DNA from: an uncultured Prevotellaceae bacterium
GTDB taxonomy: Bacteria > Bacteroidota > Bacteroidia > Bacteroidales > Muribaculaceae
Direction: 5' to 3'
Assembly (NCBI GenBank): GCA_900318645.1
Contig: ONLH01000005.1
Location: 26,021 to 90,020 of the forward strand
Length of the DNA stretch: 64,000 bases
In this document: positions 59,458 to 64,000 of the stretch, piece after piece
Layout of the letters: each line of letters starts with the position of its first letter
Numbering within the stretch: position 1 is the first letter of the stretch
Made by a program: the position numbers and the translations under genes
The notes under the pieces: model-generated
What the model was told of the DNA's origin: nothing
Seen by the model: the letters and a program-made list of their open reading frames with translations, nothing else
The model's database searches: none

Positions 59458-61002
59458 TTATTTAGCGTAGCTCACAGCGCGCGTCTCACGGATAACAGTA
59501 ATGCGCACCTGACCCGGATAAGTCATTTCATCCTGAATCTTCTGAGCAATCTCGTTGGAGAGTTTCTCGGTCTCTTCGTCACTGATCTTGTCGGCACCGA
59601 CGATCACACGCAGTTCACGACCGGCCTGGATTGCATAGGTCTTAACAACACCAGGATAGGACAAGGCCAAGTGCTCCAGATCATTGAGGCGCTTGATGTA
59701 GGCCTCGACAATTTCACGACGGGCACCGGGACGCGCACCACTGATGGCATCACACACTTGCACGATGGGAGCATACAGGCTCGTTGCCTCCTCCTCGTCA
59801 TGGTGGGCACCGATGGCGTTGCAGATGTCGGCTTTCTCCTTATATTTCTCGGCCAACTTCATACCAAGTTGTGCGTGCGGCAGTTCAGGCTCATCATCGG
59901 GCACCTTGCCAATGTCATGCAACAGTCCAGCGCGACGTGCCTTCTTGGGGTTCAGACCCAACTCGCTGGCCATGATGGCACACAGGTTAGCCGTCTCACG
60001 AGAATGCTGAAGCAGATTCTGTCCATAGCTGGAACGATATTTCATCTTACCGATGAGGCGAATAAGTTCGGGATGCAATCCGTGGATACCCATATCGATA
60101 GCAGTGCGTTTACCAGTCTCGATGACTTCCTCCTCGACTTGGCGGCGAACCTTAGCCACCACCTCCTCGATGCGTGCGGGATGGATGCGACCGTCACTGA
60201 CGAGCTGGTGCAATGCCAGGCGTGCAATTTCACGACGCACGGGGTCAAAACCAGAGAGGACGATAGCCTCGGGGGTGTCATCAACAACGATTTCAACACC
60301 AGTTGCTGCCTCCAGGGCACGGATGTTGCGACCCTCACGACCGATGATGCGGCCCTTGATCTCATCATTATCAATATGGAAGACCGTCACGGCATTCTCT
60401 ACAGCCGTTTCGGTAGCTACACGCTGGATTGTCTCGATGATGATGCGTTTGGCCTCCTTGTTGGCGGTCATTTTGGCATCATCCATGATATCATTGATAT
60501 AGCTGGCAGCATTGGTCTTGGCCTCATCCTTGAGCGACTCAATGAGTTTTTCCTTAGCCTCCTCAGCCGAGAGACCACTGACATGCTCCAAGGTGTCACG
60601 AACGCTCTTCTCCATCTTGTCAACTTCGGCTTTCCTCTGATCGAGCAGGGCCATCTGGTTATCAACATTCACCTTGAGGTTGTCCACCTCGTTGCGGCGA
60701 CGCTGCACTTCACCCTGTTGCTGATTGAGCTGCATCTCACGCTGTTTGAGTTTTGCCTCACTGGTCTGCACCTTAGTTAAACGAGCGTTGGCCTCCTTCT
60801 CGGCTTCACTCTTGATGGTCATACCGGCTTCCTTTCCCTTCATCACCTCATTATTCTTTAGCACTTCGGCTTCAAGACGGGCTTTCTCGATAATTTCGTT
60901 GGCTTGGGACTTTGCATTCTTACGAGAGAGGTACAAAGCCAAACCCCAGCCAATTGCCATCGCCAGGATGGCTACGATAACAGTTATTACTATTGTGTTC
61001 AT
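59458..61002 (-). CDS. rny: Ribonuclease Y
   Basis: 514 residues. Membrane-anchored endoribonuclease that starts decay of many mRNAs. An N-terminal transmembrane helix ([21 protein letters not shown]) is followed by a long coiled coil (about 25-200), a KH domain ([22 protein letters not shown]) and an HD domain with the metal site LLHDIGK and the earlier QHSRETANL. The C-terminal part ends in [20 protein letters not shown]. Downstream on the strand are ricT and gldH; upstream is a probable 6S RNA gene and zapA. Confidence 0.96.
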
Positions 61003-61029
61003 TAATTAATTGATAAAATATTTAAATAA

Positions 61030-61216
61030 ATAGCGCCACTCTCGGCAATACTCATCCTGTTGTTTCACAACGGGATACCGCATTAAACCTAAAGTGGTGC
61101 AGGAACCTAATTCTCTCAATATCACCTACGTCATGCCCCTCATATAGTGGCAAGCAATACCATCAAGCATGACAGCCCAAGGAGGCTGGCAACAATGATG
61201 AATATTATGCCGCTAG
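61030..61216 (-). ncRNA. ssrS: Probable 6S RNA between zapA and rny
   Basis: The 224-bp gap holds a compact structured region on the minus strand: an outer stem TAGCG / CGCTA (61211-61215 with 61031-61035), a perfect 7-bp inner stem GTCATGC / GCATGAC (61167-61173 with 61130-61136), and a 3' hairpin TCCCGTTGT-GAA-ACAACAGGA. The size (about 185 nt), the outer-stem/bubble/terminal-stem layout and the zapA neighbour are as expected for 6S RNA, which binds RNA polymerase. No ORF fits. A covariance-model search would settle it; without that it is a structural inference. Confidence 0.6.
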
Positions 61217-61225
61217 GACACAATT

Positions 61226-61522
61226 TCAGTCCTCGCTGCCCAAGAGGGCATCAAGTTTTTTGTCTAAATCAGTCAGGAATTCATTGACCTCACGGTTTTC
61301 ACCGTAAGCCTCTAAATAGAGTCTAGCAAATTGGAACGCCACCCTGCCAAGCACATCAGCCGATTCGCCGCCGAAACGGGTCATCCACTTCTTCCACAAT
61401 GTGTTGACAAGCTCCTCTGCCTTACGGTAATTTTCCTCTTCGTCCGGAGCGATGCTCAGGGCGATGGGATTTGAGGCATCAGCAAGCTGTATCCATATTT
61501 TAACTTTATTATTGTCGGCCAT
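61226..61522 (-). CDS. zapA: Cell division protein ZapA
   Basis: 98 residues from the ATG at 61522; a 13-residue upstream extension overlaps the preceding gene. ZapA binds and bundles FtsZ filaments. It has an N-terminal beta-hairpin (VKIWIQLADASNPIALSI), the DEEENYRKAEELVNTLWKKW helix and a C-terminal coiled coil (NEFLTDLDKKLDALLG). The upstream gene for a second coiled-coil protein ends 15 bp before, so they are co-transcribed, and the 6S RNA lies just downstream. Confidence 0.93.
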   Translation of the reverse strand: MADNNKVKIWIQLADASNPIALSIAPDEEENYRKAEELVNTLWKKWMTRFGGESADVLGRVAFQFARLYLEAYGENREVNEFLTDLDKKLDALLGSED

Positions 61523-61536
61523 AAAATCAGTTTTTG

Positions 61537-61833
61537 TCAAGCGTTCAACTGTTTGATGCACCGGTCAATGTCCCGCACCATCTTGGCAACCTGCTTCTTG
61601 TATTTAGCGACCACCTCTGGATCGCGAGGGACCGTATGGGCCACACGCAGGAACTCATTGTCTATCTTGAGCTGTGCTATTTCTTTCTCCAGCTTTTCAA
61701 TTTCAATGGCCTGGCATTCTAGGGTCCTCTTCATTTCCCTGTTTTCAGACTGAAGGGCGAGATACCTCTTGCGCAAAGTATCCACTTTGCGTGTCAGGTT
61801 TAGCAATTTCTCTTTCAGTTCTGTCGAAGACAT
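61537..61833 (-). CDS. Small coiled-coil protein upstream of zapA
   Basis: 98 residues from the ATG at 61833; the frame is open upstream to 61944, but that part is not conserved-looking. Nearly the whole protein is a coiled coil (LKEKLLNLTRKVDTLRKRYL, then REMKRTLECQAIEIEKLEKEI). The TRKVDTLRKRYLALQSENREMK region recalls septum proteins such as ZapB, and its position in front of zapA supports a cell-division role, but this is inference. A promoter should lie in the 220 bp toward the tRNA gene. Confidence 0.78.
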   Translation of the reverse strand: MSSTELKEKLLNLTRKVDTLRKRYLALQSENREMKRTLECQAIEIEKLEKEIAQLKIDNEFLRVAHTVPRDPEVVAKYKKQVAKMVRDIDRCIKQLNA

Positions 61834-62011
61834 ATTTACCAATTTTTTGCAAAAGTACAATTTTTTTTCAACATCACATTGTATGTGACAAAATAATTTC
61901 CATTTTTTAGCAACAATTTGATAATTCCGCCTAAATAATCGCAAAAAAACAAGCTATCATTCACCCCAAATGGCTTCTGCCAAGAAAAAACAACGATTTT
62001 TGCGAAAAAAA

Positions 62012-62054: not shown

Positions 62055-62127
62055 GGGGCATTAGCTCATCTGGTAGAGCGCAACACTGGCAGTGTTGAGG
62101 TAAGCGGTTCGAGTCCGCTATGCTCCA
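62055..62127 (+). tRNA. tRNA-Ala (anticodon GGC)
   Basis: 73 nt. The acceptor arm GGGGCAT pairs with ATGCTCC (one G-T); D-arm AGCTCATCTGGTAGAGC; the anticodon arm is CAACA-CTGGCAG-TGTTG with anticodon GGC (codon GCC); the T arm GCGGTTCGAGTCCGC contains GTTCGAG. The discriminator base is A and CCA is not encoded. tRNA 3' ends are common integration sites, which is relevant to the unusual sequence that follows. Confidence 0.97.
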
Positions 62128-62188
62128 CAACTTAATTGGCTATAAAACAGCGAATTAAGCAGTTTTTATTTTTGTCAAAATCCAATAC

Positions 62189-62260
62189 GTTGTCATACTG
62201 TTGTCATAAAAACATAATGATGAAAAGCAATGACAACAATGTCATGATAATGGAATGACA
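62189..62260. repeat. Cluster of TGTCAT motifs in both orientations next to tRNA-Ala
   Basis: GTTGTCAT occurs at 62189-62196 and 62200-62207, its complement ATGACAAC at 62230-62237, and shorter TGTCAT/ATGACA copies at about 62240-62260. Five copies within 75 bp suggest binding sites, for example recombinase arm sites near a tRNA attachment site. Confidence 0.6.
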
Positions 62261-62452
62261 AAGTCTTCAGAGAGCTGTTCCCCGATAGATGGCGACGAGA
62301 TACTAAAAAGGCATAACACGCTTTGGCGGGTAAGAATTCAACACTCCCCCTCTCTCTCCTTACCTAATAATAAGGTGTAATTTTCGGGGCGTTCAAACGT
62401 AGACATTTTCAAAATTACGCGAAATTACGATTTGTAAAGGATTGAAATAATC

Positions 62453-62642
62453 AAATATTTGATTATCAATCATTAAAGGGTTGAAAAGGGAAATTATTCC
62501 CTTTGTTTCCCTCTCAGGATCCCCCTACTGCCCTGCGGAGCGCTTCTGAAAATCACTTGGTTAAAAAGCGCTATATGCAGGACGAAAGGACGGTAATTGA
62601 GCTCACATACGTTGATGAATCCGACGACAGTCTGGTTTCGTC
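62453..62642 (+). repeat. Structured array repeat, copy 1 (partial)
   Basis: It lacks the AAAAACA box at the left. It shows the palindrome AAAGGGAA-ATTA-TTCCCTTT (62485-62504), the CCCTGCGGAGCG box and the AAAAGCGCTATATGCAG box, which pair through CCTGC/GCAGG and AGCGCTT/AAGCGCT (62532-62545 with 62566-62581), and a diverged right box (62613-62640). Confidence 0.7.
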
Positions 62643-62850
62643 CACACCATTCCTGGAATAATGATATGCGCTGAAGCAATACAAACGAACGATGTTATCA
62701 TTGCGACCGCTGCCGATTCGGAGTGGCGGCGGTCGCGGCGGTATATTTTGCAGTCGGTTGATTCAACATCATAAATGCAAACTCTTTGGAATGTCAGAGA
62801 TACCCAGCAAAGGCCGAATAGTGACAAAAAACGCCATTTTTATGTGTGAC

Positions 62851-63123
62851 GTAAAAACATATATATCAACGAGTTATCTTGTGTGATTTCAGACGATTTT
62901 TTCGTTATTTTTCGAGTTGTCAAGCATTCAAAGAAAATTTTGGCTGATAATCAGCTATTTACAGGGTTACGGGACGGTAGTCCAGGTCTCTCTCTTGGTA
63001 TCCCCCATCCGCCCTACGGAGCGTTTCCGAAATCGTGTCTTCATCAAAGCGCTATATGCAGGAGGATGGGCGGTACAGAGGCCGACGTGCGTGAGCGAAT
63101 TCGACACGAAGTATCGGTTTCGA
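62851..63123 (+). repeat. Structured array repeat, copy 2
   Basis: 273 bp. The boxes in order are GTAAAAACATATATATCAAC, palindrome GGCTGATAATCAGCT (62942-62956), a degenerate AGGGTT...GGG segment, CCCATCCGCCCTACGGAGCG, AAAGCGCTATATGCAGG, and GACGTGCGTGAGCG...GAAGTATCGGTTTCGA. CCCATCC (63004-63010) can pair with GGATGGG (63064-63070). Confidence 0.75.
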
Positions 63124-63210
63124 CTCATCCATAGAGGCTCCGCTATGACTCTAAGATACCTTTATTTGTTGGGCAAGATGCTGCAGAAAGGTGCAGAAAT
63201 TTGGAGTTCT

Positions 63211-63497
63211 CAAAAACATCTATATCAGCAAGTTAGCAGACGGAGTTACAAGCAAGTTTTTAGAAAAATCACCAAAATTCCTATTTTGAAATCTGCTAAT
63301 AGCTGATATCCAGTCATCTAAAAGGTTTTAAAGGGAAATTTTCCCTTTATTTCCCTCTCGGAATCCCCCTACCGCCCTGCGGAGCGTGCCCAAAATCCAT
63401 CGGCCATAAAAGCGCTATATGCAGAGCGATGTTCCAGCCATTGAGCGGTAAAATCGCTCATGTGTGACGATGAACCGACACGAAGTATCGGTTTCGA
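63211..63497 (+). repeat. Structured array repeat, copy 3
   Basis: 287 bp. CAAAAACATCTATATCAGCA at the left, a degenerate CTGATATCCAG, a perfect 19-bp palindrome AAAGGGAAATTTTCCCTTT (63330-63348), CCCTACCGCCCTGCGGAGCG, AAAAGCGCTATATGCAG (63408-63424), and ACCGACACGAAGTATCGG with GTTTCGA at the right. Confidence 0.75.
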
Positions 63498-63703
63498 TGG
63501 CACATATGCCCCTGCTGCTATGGAAAACCGCCATTTTGATATGCTGTGAGATTGAACCAACGAATGGTGATACCTAATGGCGGTCTGTTCTTCTGGCTGG
63601 TTTCTGATGCAAAGGCAAAACAGGTGACCTTTCGTGCTTCTCTGATTGCGTGAGAGAATAACAAGTCGAAATTTTAACATTTGACTCATGATTTTTTAGT
63701 GCC

Positions 63704-63988
63704 GTAAAAACACCTATATCAGCAAGTTAGTATATAAAATTCGGACAAGAATTTCTTAAAAGTGAAAATTTTCCGCACCTCGAGAGGTGACTTTGGCTGA
63801 TAATCAGCCAATTAAAGGGTTGAAAAAGGGAAAATTTTCCCTTCTTTCCCTCTTGGGAGCCCCCGACTGCCCTGCGAAACGTGTTGCAAACTCACTTTCA
63901 AAAAAGCGCTATATGCAGGGCGATTTTGGCATTGTGCGGTGATGATGATGACGTGCGTGAGCGCATCCGACACGCAGTATCGGTTGCG
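63704..63988 (+). repeat. Structured array repeat, copy 4
   Basis: 285 bp. GTAAAAACACCTATATCAGC, a palindrome GGCTGATAATCAGCC (63795-63809), a perfect 18-bp palindrome AAGGGAAAATTTTCCCTT (63826-63843), GCCCTGC (63869-63875) pairing perfectly with GCAGGGC (63915-63921), and GACGTGCGTGAGCGCATCC then CGACACGCAGTATCGGTT at the right. The sequence after it reaches the window end. Confidence 0.75.
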
Positions 63989-64000
63989 CTTATGCTCGTC

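Follow-up and report, generated by a model that had tools for sequence, protein, structure and literature searches.

What is the array of diverged repeats that follows a tRNA-Ala gene at the right end of the window, the 64,000-nt stretch of contig ONLH01000005.1 (positions 26,021 to 90,020) from an uncultured Prevotellaceae bacterium of the ruminant gut? Four diverged units of about 300 nt were found downstream of the tRNA gene, all on the plus strand. In appearance, the units are repeats of the leading portion of a large folded RNA that has not been described. We think it somewhat probable that this element represents a previously undescribed family of large, structured non-coding RNAs carried by mobile elements of Bacteroidales, resembling the GOLLD and ROOL RNAs and common to phages and satellite-like islands. 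Herein, the repeated unit is referred to as the 5' domain and the non-coding stretch of about 570 nt found behind the last unit of an element as the module, or 3' domain.

Short hairpins, together with a GCCCTGC...GCAGGGC stem and a long hairpin that covaries, make up the conserved 5' domain. Units were located in two ways, by an nhmmer profile (full units) and by a covariance model (cores) trained on 36 sequences, including copies 1-3 of the window; the model recovered four cores in the window with 100 to 139 bits. In total, 252 profile hits were reduced to 84 distinct complete units and, after clustering at 93%, to 44. Three alignments were made from these 44 units, namely A1 (40 sequences), A2 (36), and the RNAalifold unit set (34), the omitted copies being cut, hybrid, or poorly alignable. 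Folding of the default alignment A1 gave no more than 13 pairs, of which 7 show changes on both sides. The structure was therefore taken from base-pair probabilities with G·U forbidden and averaged over both strands. In A2, 80.2% of cells are paired, as compared to 74.0 in shuffled alignments. Changes on both sides were found in 22 of the 49 pairs (16.9 shuffled, 6/500 shuffles) and in 126 cells (54.7 shuffled, 0/500), and the covariation score is 0.260 (0.167 shuffled, 0/500). The long hairpin, formed by columns 114-138 with 143-167, accounts for 14 of the 22 pairs. Related sequences may exceed shuffles even without a structure.

The fold of the module is mainly one rod, from about column 85 to column 660, with one separate hairpin in columns 37-77. 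The module set contained 20 sequences, 19 of them without near copies. For the alignment A4 (17 rows), five of the 20 were dropped and two loci were added, L306 and L310, the latter with a long gap. This alignment supports 151 pairs, with 95.3% paired versus 91.5 in shuffles, 33 pairs changed on both sides (12.5 shuffled), 61 further pair types (50.2 shuffled), and a covariation score of 0.116 (0.057 shuffled), the last three values at 0/500 shuffles. Slid versions of the structures reached at most 47.4% paired and a score of 0.129 for the unit, and at most 40.3% paired, 11 pairs, and a score of 0.028 for the module, a comparison that favors the actual structures, since both were derived from the same sequences as were counted. 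Thus, both domains exceed the shuffled and the slid controls, and the first-pass annotation, made from the letters of the sequence, was right that pairing is kept in the units while bases change. The module diverges across subfamilies too. Insertions of about 74 bp with palindromes of the GCAAGCTTG type were found at two places within otherwise conserved modules (L063, L064, L119, L207), and in L066 and L071 a similar palindrome lies close to where the module begins. These look like small mobile palindromes of the repetitive extragenic palindromic (REP) type.

Neither domain appears to encode a protein. All six open reading frames (ORFs) of at least 60 aa in the array are broken by a stop or an indel in one or more of five orthologous arrays, in agreement with the absence of a coding signature noted earlier, and these ORFs were rejected as genes. 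For the module, a gene on the antisense strand, with a frame starting MTDLSAGECL, was considered. This frame reaches at least 171 codons in 9 of the 20 distinct versions with that start, and some of the short versions may be truncated where the retrieved sequence ends. Its ratio of non-synonymous to synonymous polymorphism (pN/pS) is, however, 0.82, inside the 0.72-1.31 range of the other five frames; relatives show stops and gapped codons, and different frames occupy the same place in other subfamilies. A coding antisense strand is thus extremely improbable, and this candidate was rejected.

The unit was found in 58 of the 101 genomes of the genus, including 34 among the 48 with a completeness of 90% or more and a contamination not above 5%. 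Among 393 genomes of the order, matches were found only in the genome of the window (G000) and in G416, which belongs to another family (E 2.3e-9; one of nine genomes of that family). Homologues, which the first-pass annotation had proposed to look for, therefore exist in the genus and in one genome beyond its family. Among the pattern matches in IMG/VR, L231 and L232 are the sole contigs carrying the unit by profile, and in the contig pattern scan, those of the matches listed that come from outside Bacteroidales mostly fail the profile. No match to unit 3 was found in the phage and plasmid records. In Rfam, the window matched only tRNA at gathering scores. At E<=5, six matches were found for the array (E 1.2 to 4.6), all far under gathering scores and none of them GOLLD. 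At E<=1, six loci with full elements gave tRNAs, one match with E 0.26, and a match to YrlA that is under its gathering score and lies across two tRNA genes, with no GOLLD or ROOL among them. The ROOL covariance model had no match in the window, the array, or these six loci. In the open-licence literature, no paper was recognized as describing this RNA family. It would represent a large structured RNA family outside the Rfam copy searched.

Two kinds of genomic setting were found for the element. In 19 prophage loci (L068, L069, L070, L231, L232, L271, L272, L274, L279, L280, L281, L283, L286, L288, L293, L294, L295, L298, and L302), the unit and a gene of the tape-measure type are on opposite strands. 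In all of these loci but L232, the distance was measured: the gene starts 152-352 bp before the core, or 954 bp in L280. The tape-measure protein was identified by Pfam and PHROGs in L069 only; those of the other loci are like it at the N-terminus, as read by eye from the sequence for L232, and in L288 the start differs. Among the 19 is one locus of another family; in G416, the unit stands beside a tape-measure-like gene. The loci L282 and L299 are phage-like, with a different gene in the tape-measure place. On the other side of the unit, lysis-like frames were found in 10 of the 19 loci (L068, L069, L231, L271, L280, L281, L283, L286, L295, and L298); the amidase of L231 was named by profile, and several of the remaining loci end earlier at a contig end.

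The second setting is linked to tRNA genes. All 27 tallied loci have a tRNA upstream on the same strand within about 5 kb, for Leu (10), Lys (8), Ala (4), Pro (3), or Arg (2); the tally covers loci with a tRNA that near, so that phage loci whose tRNAs are at least 7 kb off, and loci showing no tRNA, fall outside it. Between the tRNA and the unit, 17 of the 27 loci have helix-turn-helix (HTH) or excisionase-like frames and replication frames. The replication frames are like one of two gene sets: an initiator together with a DnaC-like loader, or a helicase (DUF3987) together with a primase (BT4734/PriCT). Profiles named replication and excision genes in L061 and L062 alone; in the other loci, they were judged as frames. 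A tyrosine integrase was found in three of the 27 loci (L060, L071, and L278), and no such gene was seen in seven, including the tRNA-Ala loci. Two loci, L277 and L289, show replication frames too, but the stretch in view there has no tRNA. Repeats of the tRNA as attachment (att) sites were not supported in the 27 loci. A frame of about 300 aa was found between the tRNA and the replication genes in L062 (5873-6856), with similar frames in L276, L297, L300, and L301; the L062 frame had no Pfam or PHROGs match. In L308 (155-3324; G054:C29), three consecutive tyrosine-recombinase genes lie immediately upstream of the unit, an arrangement like that of a recombinase-in-trio element.

Phage and island copies are intermixed on a tree built from 48 cores. 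Six changes of the phage label are needed on it, and at least five of them are forced by starred branches. The island L287 groups with the phages L286 and L288, and the island L273 groups with the phage L272, both from the genome G159. Of the labels checked afterwards (L291, L298, L304, L305, and L307), those of L291 and L298 stand and that of L304 is doubtful; on the tree, L305 and L307 bear the label OTHER, L060 was labelled SAT owing to its integrase, and L282 and L299 were labelled PHAGE without an adjoining tape-measure gene. In three of the compared pairs of a phage and an island, homology is confined to the element: L286/L287 (92.5% over 724 aligned bases), L272/L273 (92.3% over 1233), and L302/L277 (83.1% over 1076). 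In the genome G009, the phage L068 and the island L062 have modules 94.9% identical over 506 bases and 5' domains 66.7% identical over 312. On this one tree, copies switched between prophage and island settings several times. If the element is indeed exchanged between prophages and satellite-like islands, it would tie RNAs of the GOLLD and ROOL kind to phage-satellite conflict, and pairs such as L272 and L273, found in one genome, provide natural phage/island pairs for comparison.

Several results favor the plus strand as the folded one. For strand-neutral pairs of the unit, G·U outnumbers A·C on the plus strand by 162 to 85, with columns 100-179 alone giving 107 to 33; for those of the module the counts are 50 and 28. 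The RNAalifold energies with G·U allowed are -85.0 (plus) and -71.6 (minus) for the unit and -411.7 and -364.4 for the module. A terminator-like hairpin is present on the plus strand at the right edge of the module in two phages. Other observations weigh against a plus-strand RNA exchanged between the two settings, as does the origin of the structures mentioned above. In columns 26-33 of the unit, G·U and A·C number 12 and 31, and two G·U-free structures of the 34-unit set lean toward minus (91 vs. 115 and 95 vs. 120, read on plus). Folding of single units does not discriminate between the strands (the plus strand is the lower one in 14 of 36; z -3.23 vs. -3.15), and further pair types in the unit are not above shuffles (53 vs. 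54.3, 383/500). The late genes of the phages are on the strand opposite to the element, and in L231 and L068 the first short hairpin of the element, next to a T run, resembles a minus-strand terminator. The sequence that follows the unit in G416 is no more stably folded than its shuffles (z -0.67). Three pairs of loci (L281/L276, L288/L287, and L274/L273) match in further downstream stretches too, and no att-like repeats point to integration of the islands, the 27 tRNA-linked loci having only two 12-nt matches, both in L287. If the RNA were instead made from the minus strand, it would in phages be a leader, or a processed RNA, of the late operon that ends at the first short hairpin. This reading would draw on that hairpin, on the strand shared with the late genes, and on the minus-leaning counts. 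It is nevertheless highly unlikely given the strand-neutral G·U counts and the RNAalifold energies, both of which favor plus, and given that the plus strand is the tRNA strand in tRNA-linked loci.

The plus-strand G·U excess would fit folded single-stranded DNA (ssDNA) as well as RNA. We accordingly weighed a DNA site acting in cis, such as a packaging signal or a single-strand origin folded as ssDNA, shared so that the helper machinery handles the island DNA. This explanation suits an element that is common to phages and to islands showing no structural genes and that is preceded by two different replication gene sets; folded ssDNA would also covary and tolerate G·T better than A·C, and the strand counts are mixed. 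We hold it to be unlikely in view of the element size (0.7-1.2 kb), the precise internal loops of the 151-pair module, and the location amid late genes; no terminase gene was noticed beside the element, though terminases were not searched for. Packaging sites common to satellites and helper phages are a case of a shared non-coding element, but the element described here is far longer and covaries. A non-coding mobile element of the miniature inverted-repeat transposable element (MITE) type, inserting beside tRNA genes and into phages, would also be repeated and structured, with tandem copies, and would agree with the small palindromic insertions inside some modules and the integrases beside a few copies. 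Such an element is quite unlikely to keep its place and orientation constant in 19 prophage loci, one of another family, and to have the tRNA upstream on the same strand in every tallied tRNA-linked locus. The element is likely, judging by sequence comparison, to be an RNA of the plus strand. The earlier suggestion of a structured-RNA array is thus borne out as to covariation and homologues, and only partly supported as to RNA versus folded DNA and strand.

The statement that the array matches no named system holds in that no Rfam family was found, but the prophage and tRNA setting resembles that reported for GOLLD and ROOL in the part of the source considered (PMC12286853). According to this part, the functions of both RNAs are undescribed or unknown, GOLLD has a conserved 3' part and a less conserved 5' part, as is seen here for L068 and L062 but not across subfamilies, in which the module diverges as well, and ROOL is a large phage or prophage RNA near tRNA islands, with one example from cow rumen (PMC12286853). 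The present element shares with GOLLD a large covarying structure of unit and module and a prophage or tRNA-linked location, and differs from it in having, in the loci scanned, no Rfam match besides tRNA, in its tandem 5' domains, and in being held by satellite-like islands as well; GOLLD expression rises during phage lysis, and transcription of the present element is predicted from sequence. Unlike ROOL, which forms a homo-oligomeric cage, it has no Rfam match, Bacteroidales hosts, and a rod-like 3' domain. A further parallel is the phage ICP1, in which an orf-less space of about 1 kb at the lysis cluster is the source of the most abundant transcript, of about 800 nt; its satellite, the phage-inducible chromosomal island-like element (PLE), has an abundant non-coding RNA too (PMC7567579). 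In the passages of that paper considered (PMC7567579), the two RNAs are not stated to be related, whereas here one element occurs in both settings. These resemblances are parallels and not homology, ICP1 and PLE being likened by description only.

The element would be transcribed from the plus strand and, by analogy with GOLLD and ROOL, would most likely act in trans, as an RNA that is abundant late in the phage life cycle and may assemble into homo-oligomers. Satellite-like islands would keep a copy because the cycle of the helper involves the element, which may have a role in packaging. The array of the window would represent a gene-less tRNA-Ala copy with the 5' domain multiplied into four diverged types. 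A broader proposal, which we consider tentative and somewhat doubtful, is that of a further class of giant ornate phage RNAs common to tailed phages and their satellites, with the satellites capturing the RNA gene of the helper, multiplying its 5' domain into diverged tandem units, and using it for replication, packaging, or tolerance by that helper. If true, it would make giant phage RNAs testable via satellite-helper genetics.

In the window, the tRNA-Ala (GGC) gene was found at 62055..62128 by ARAGORN and by Rfam tRNA, and the stretch up to copy 1 (62129..62380) is 89-93.5% identical to that of other tRNA-Ala loci of the genus. All features of the array are on the plus strand. Copy 1 (type A; 62381..62658, core 62504-62667, 100.0 bits), copy 2 (type B; 62841..63146, core 62985-63146, 119.8 bits), and copy 3 (type C; 63200..63514, core 63348-63518, 128.9 bits) were located by nhmmer and by the covariance model. 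Copy 4 (type D; 63694..64000, core 63843-64000) was found by nhmmer up to 63999 and scored 139.0 bits, cut at the 3' side, since window base 64000 is the end of contig G000:C49. The ordered boxes that the units had been said to share are as described, except that copy 1 lacks the upstream AAAAACA...TATATCA box and that GGGAC-GGTA-GTCC replaces the AAGGGAAA/TTTCCCTT palindrome in copy 2.

The segments between the units had been regarded as unrelated and variable. They are instead conserved and specific to the unit type. Segment 1 (62659..62840), in which positions 62701-62738 form a hairpin of 15 pairs, is found again after type-A units in G017 (77%) and in G018 (67% over 135 bases), and segment 3 (63515..63693) recurs behind a type-C unit in G002 (85%). 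Thus, each unit has its own 3' part. The short type-B segment 2 (63147..63199) was seen in tRNA-Ala arrays only. Folding of segments 1-3 was no better than that of shuffles (z -1.34, 1.24, and -0.03).

Arrays with an identical unit order and 92-96% identity were found in five relatives (G019, G020, G024, G025, and G054), the last unit being incomplete at a contig end in G020 and G054. An integron-type cassette array was rejected, because these relatives, up to the ends of their contigs, share the units, the segments, and their order; between close relatives the array is stable, and segments stay with their unit type. The array had been supposed to continue past the window. Copy 4 is cut by the contig end, and as the window stops there, the array cannot be extended rightwards in this genome. 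In G024 and G025 (loci L059 and L058), where the contig continues, no fifth copy was found after copy 4; it is followed by the module and then by other sequence. In G024 (L059 5734-5783; G024:C1), the array is preceded by just 50 bases of tRNA-Ala, from position 28 on, with no complete tRNA called upstream; the sequence ahead of this partial gene differs, as if another element had used that tRNA. One single unit was found in G307, its 5' half resembling copy 1 and its 3' half copy 4; the loci L126, L217, and L290 of this genome are, to judge by length, apparently one and the same contig. This hybrid may reflect shrinkage of the array through recombination between units. Upstream of the tRNA-Ala gene, the window contains on the minus strand (59458-61944) genes that putatively encode RNase Y and small ZapA/coiled-coil proteins.
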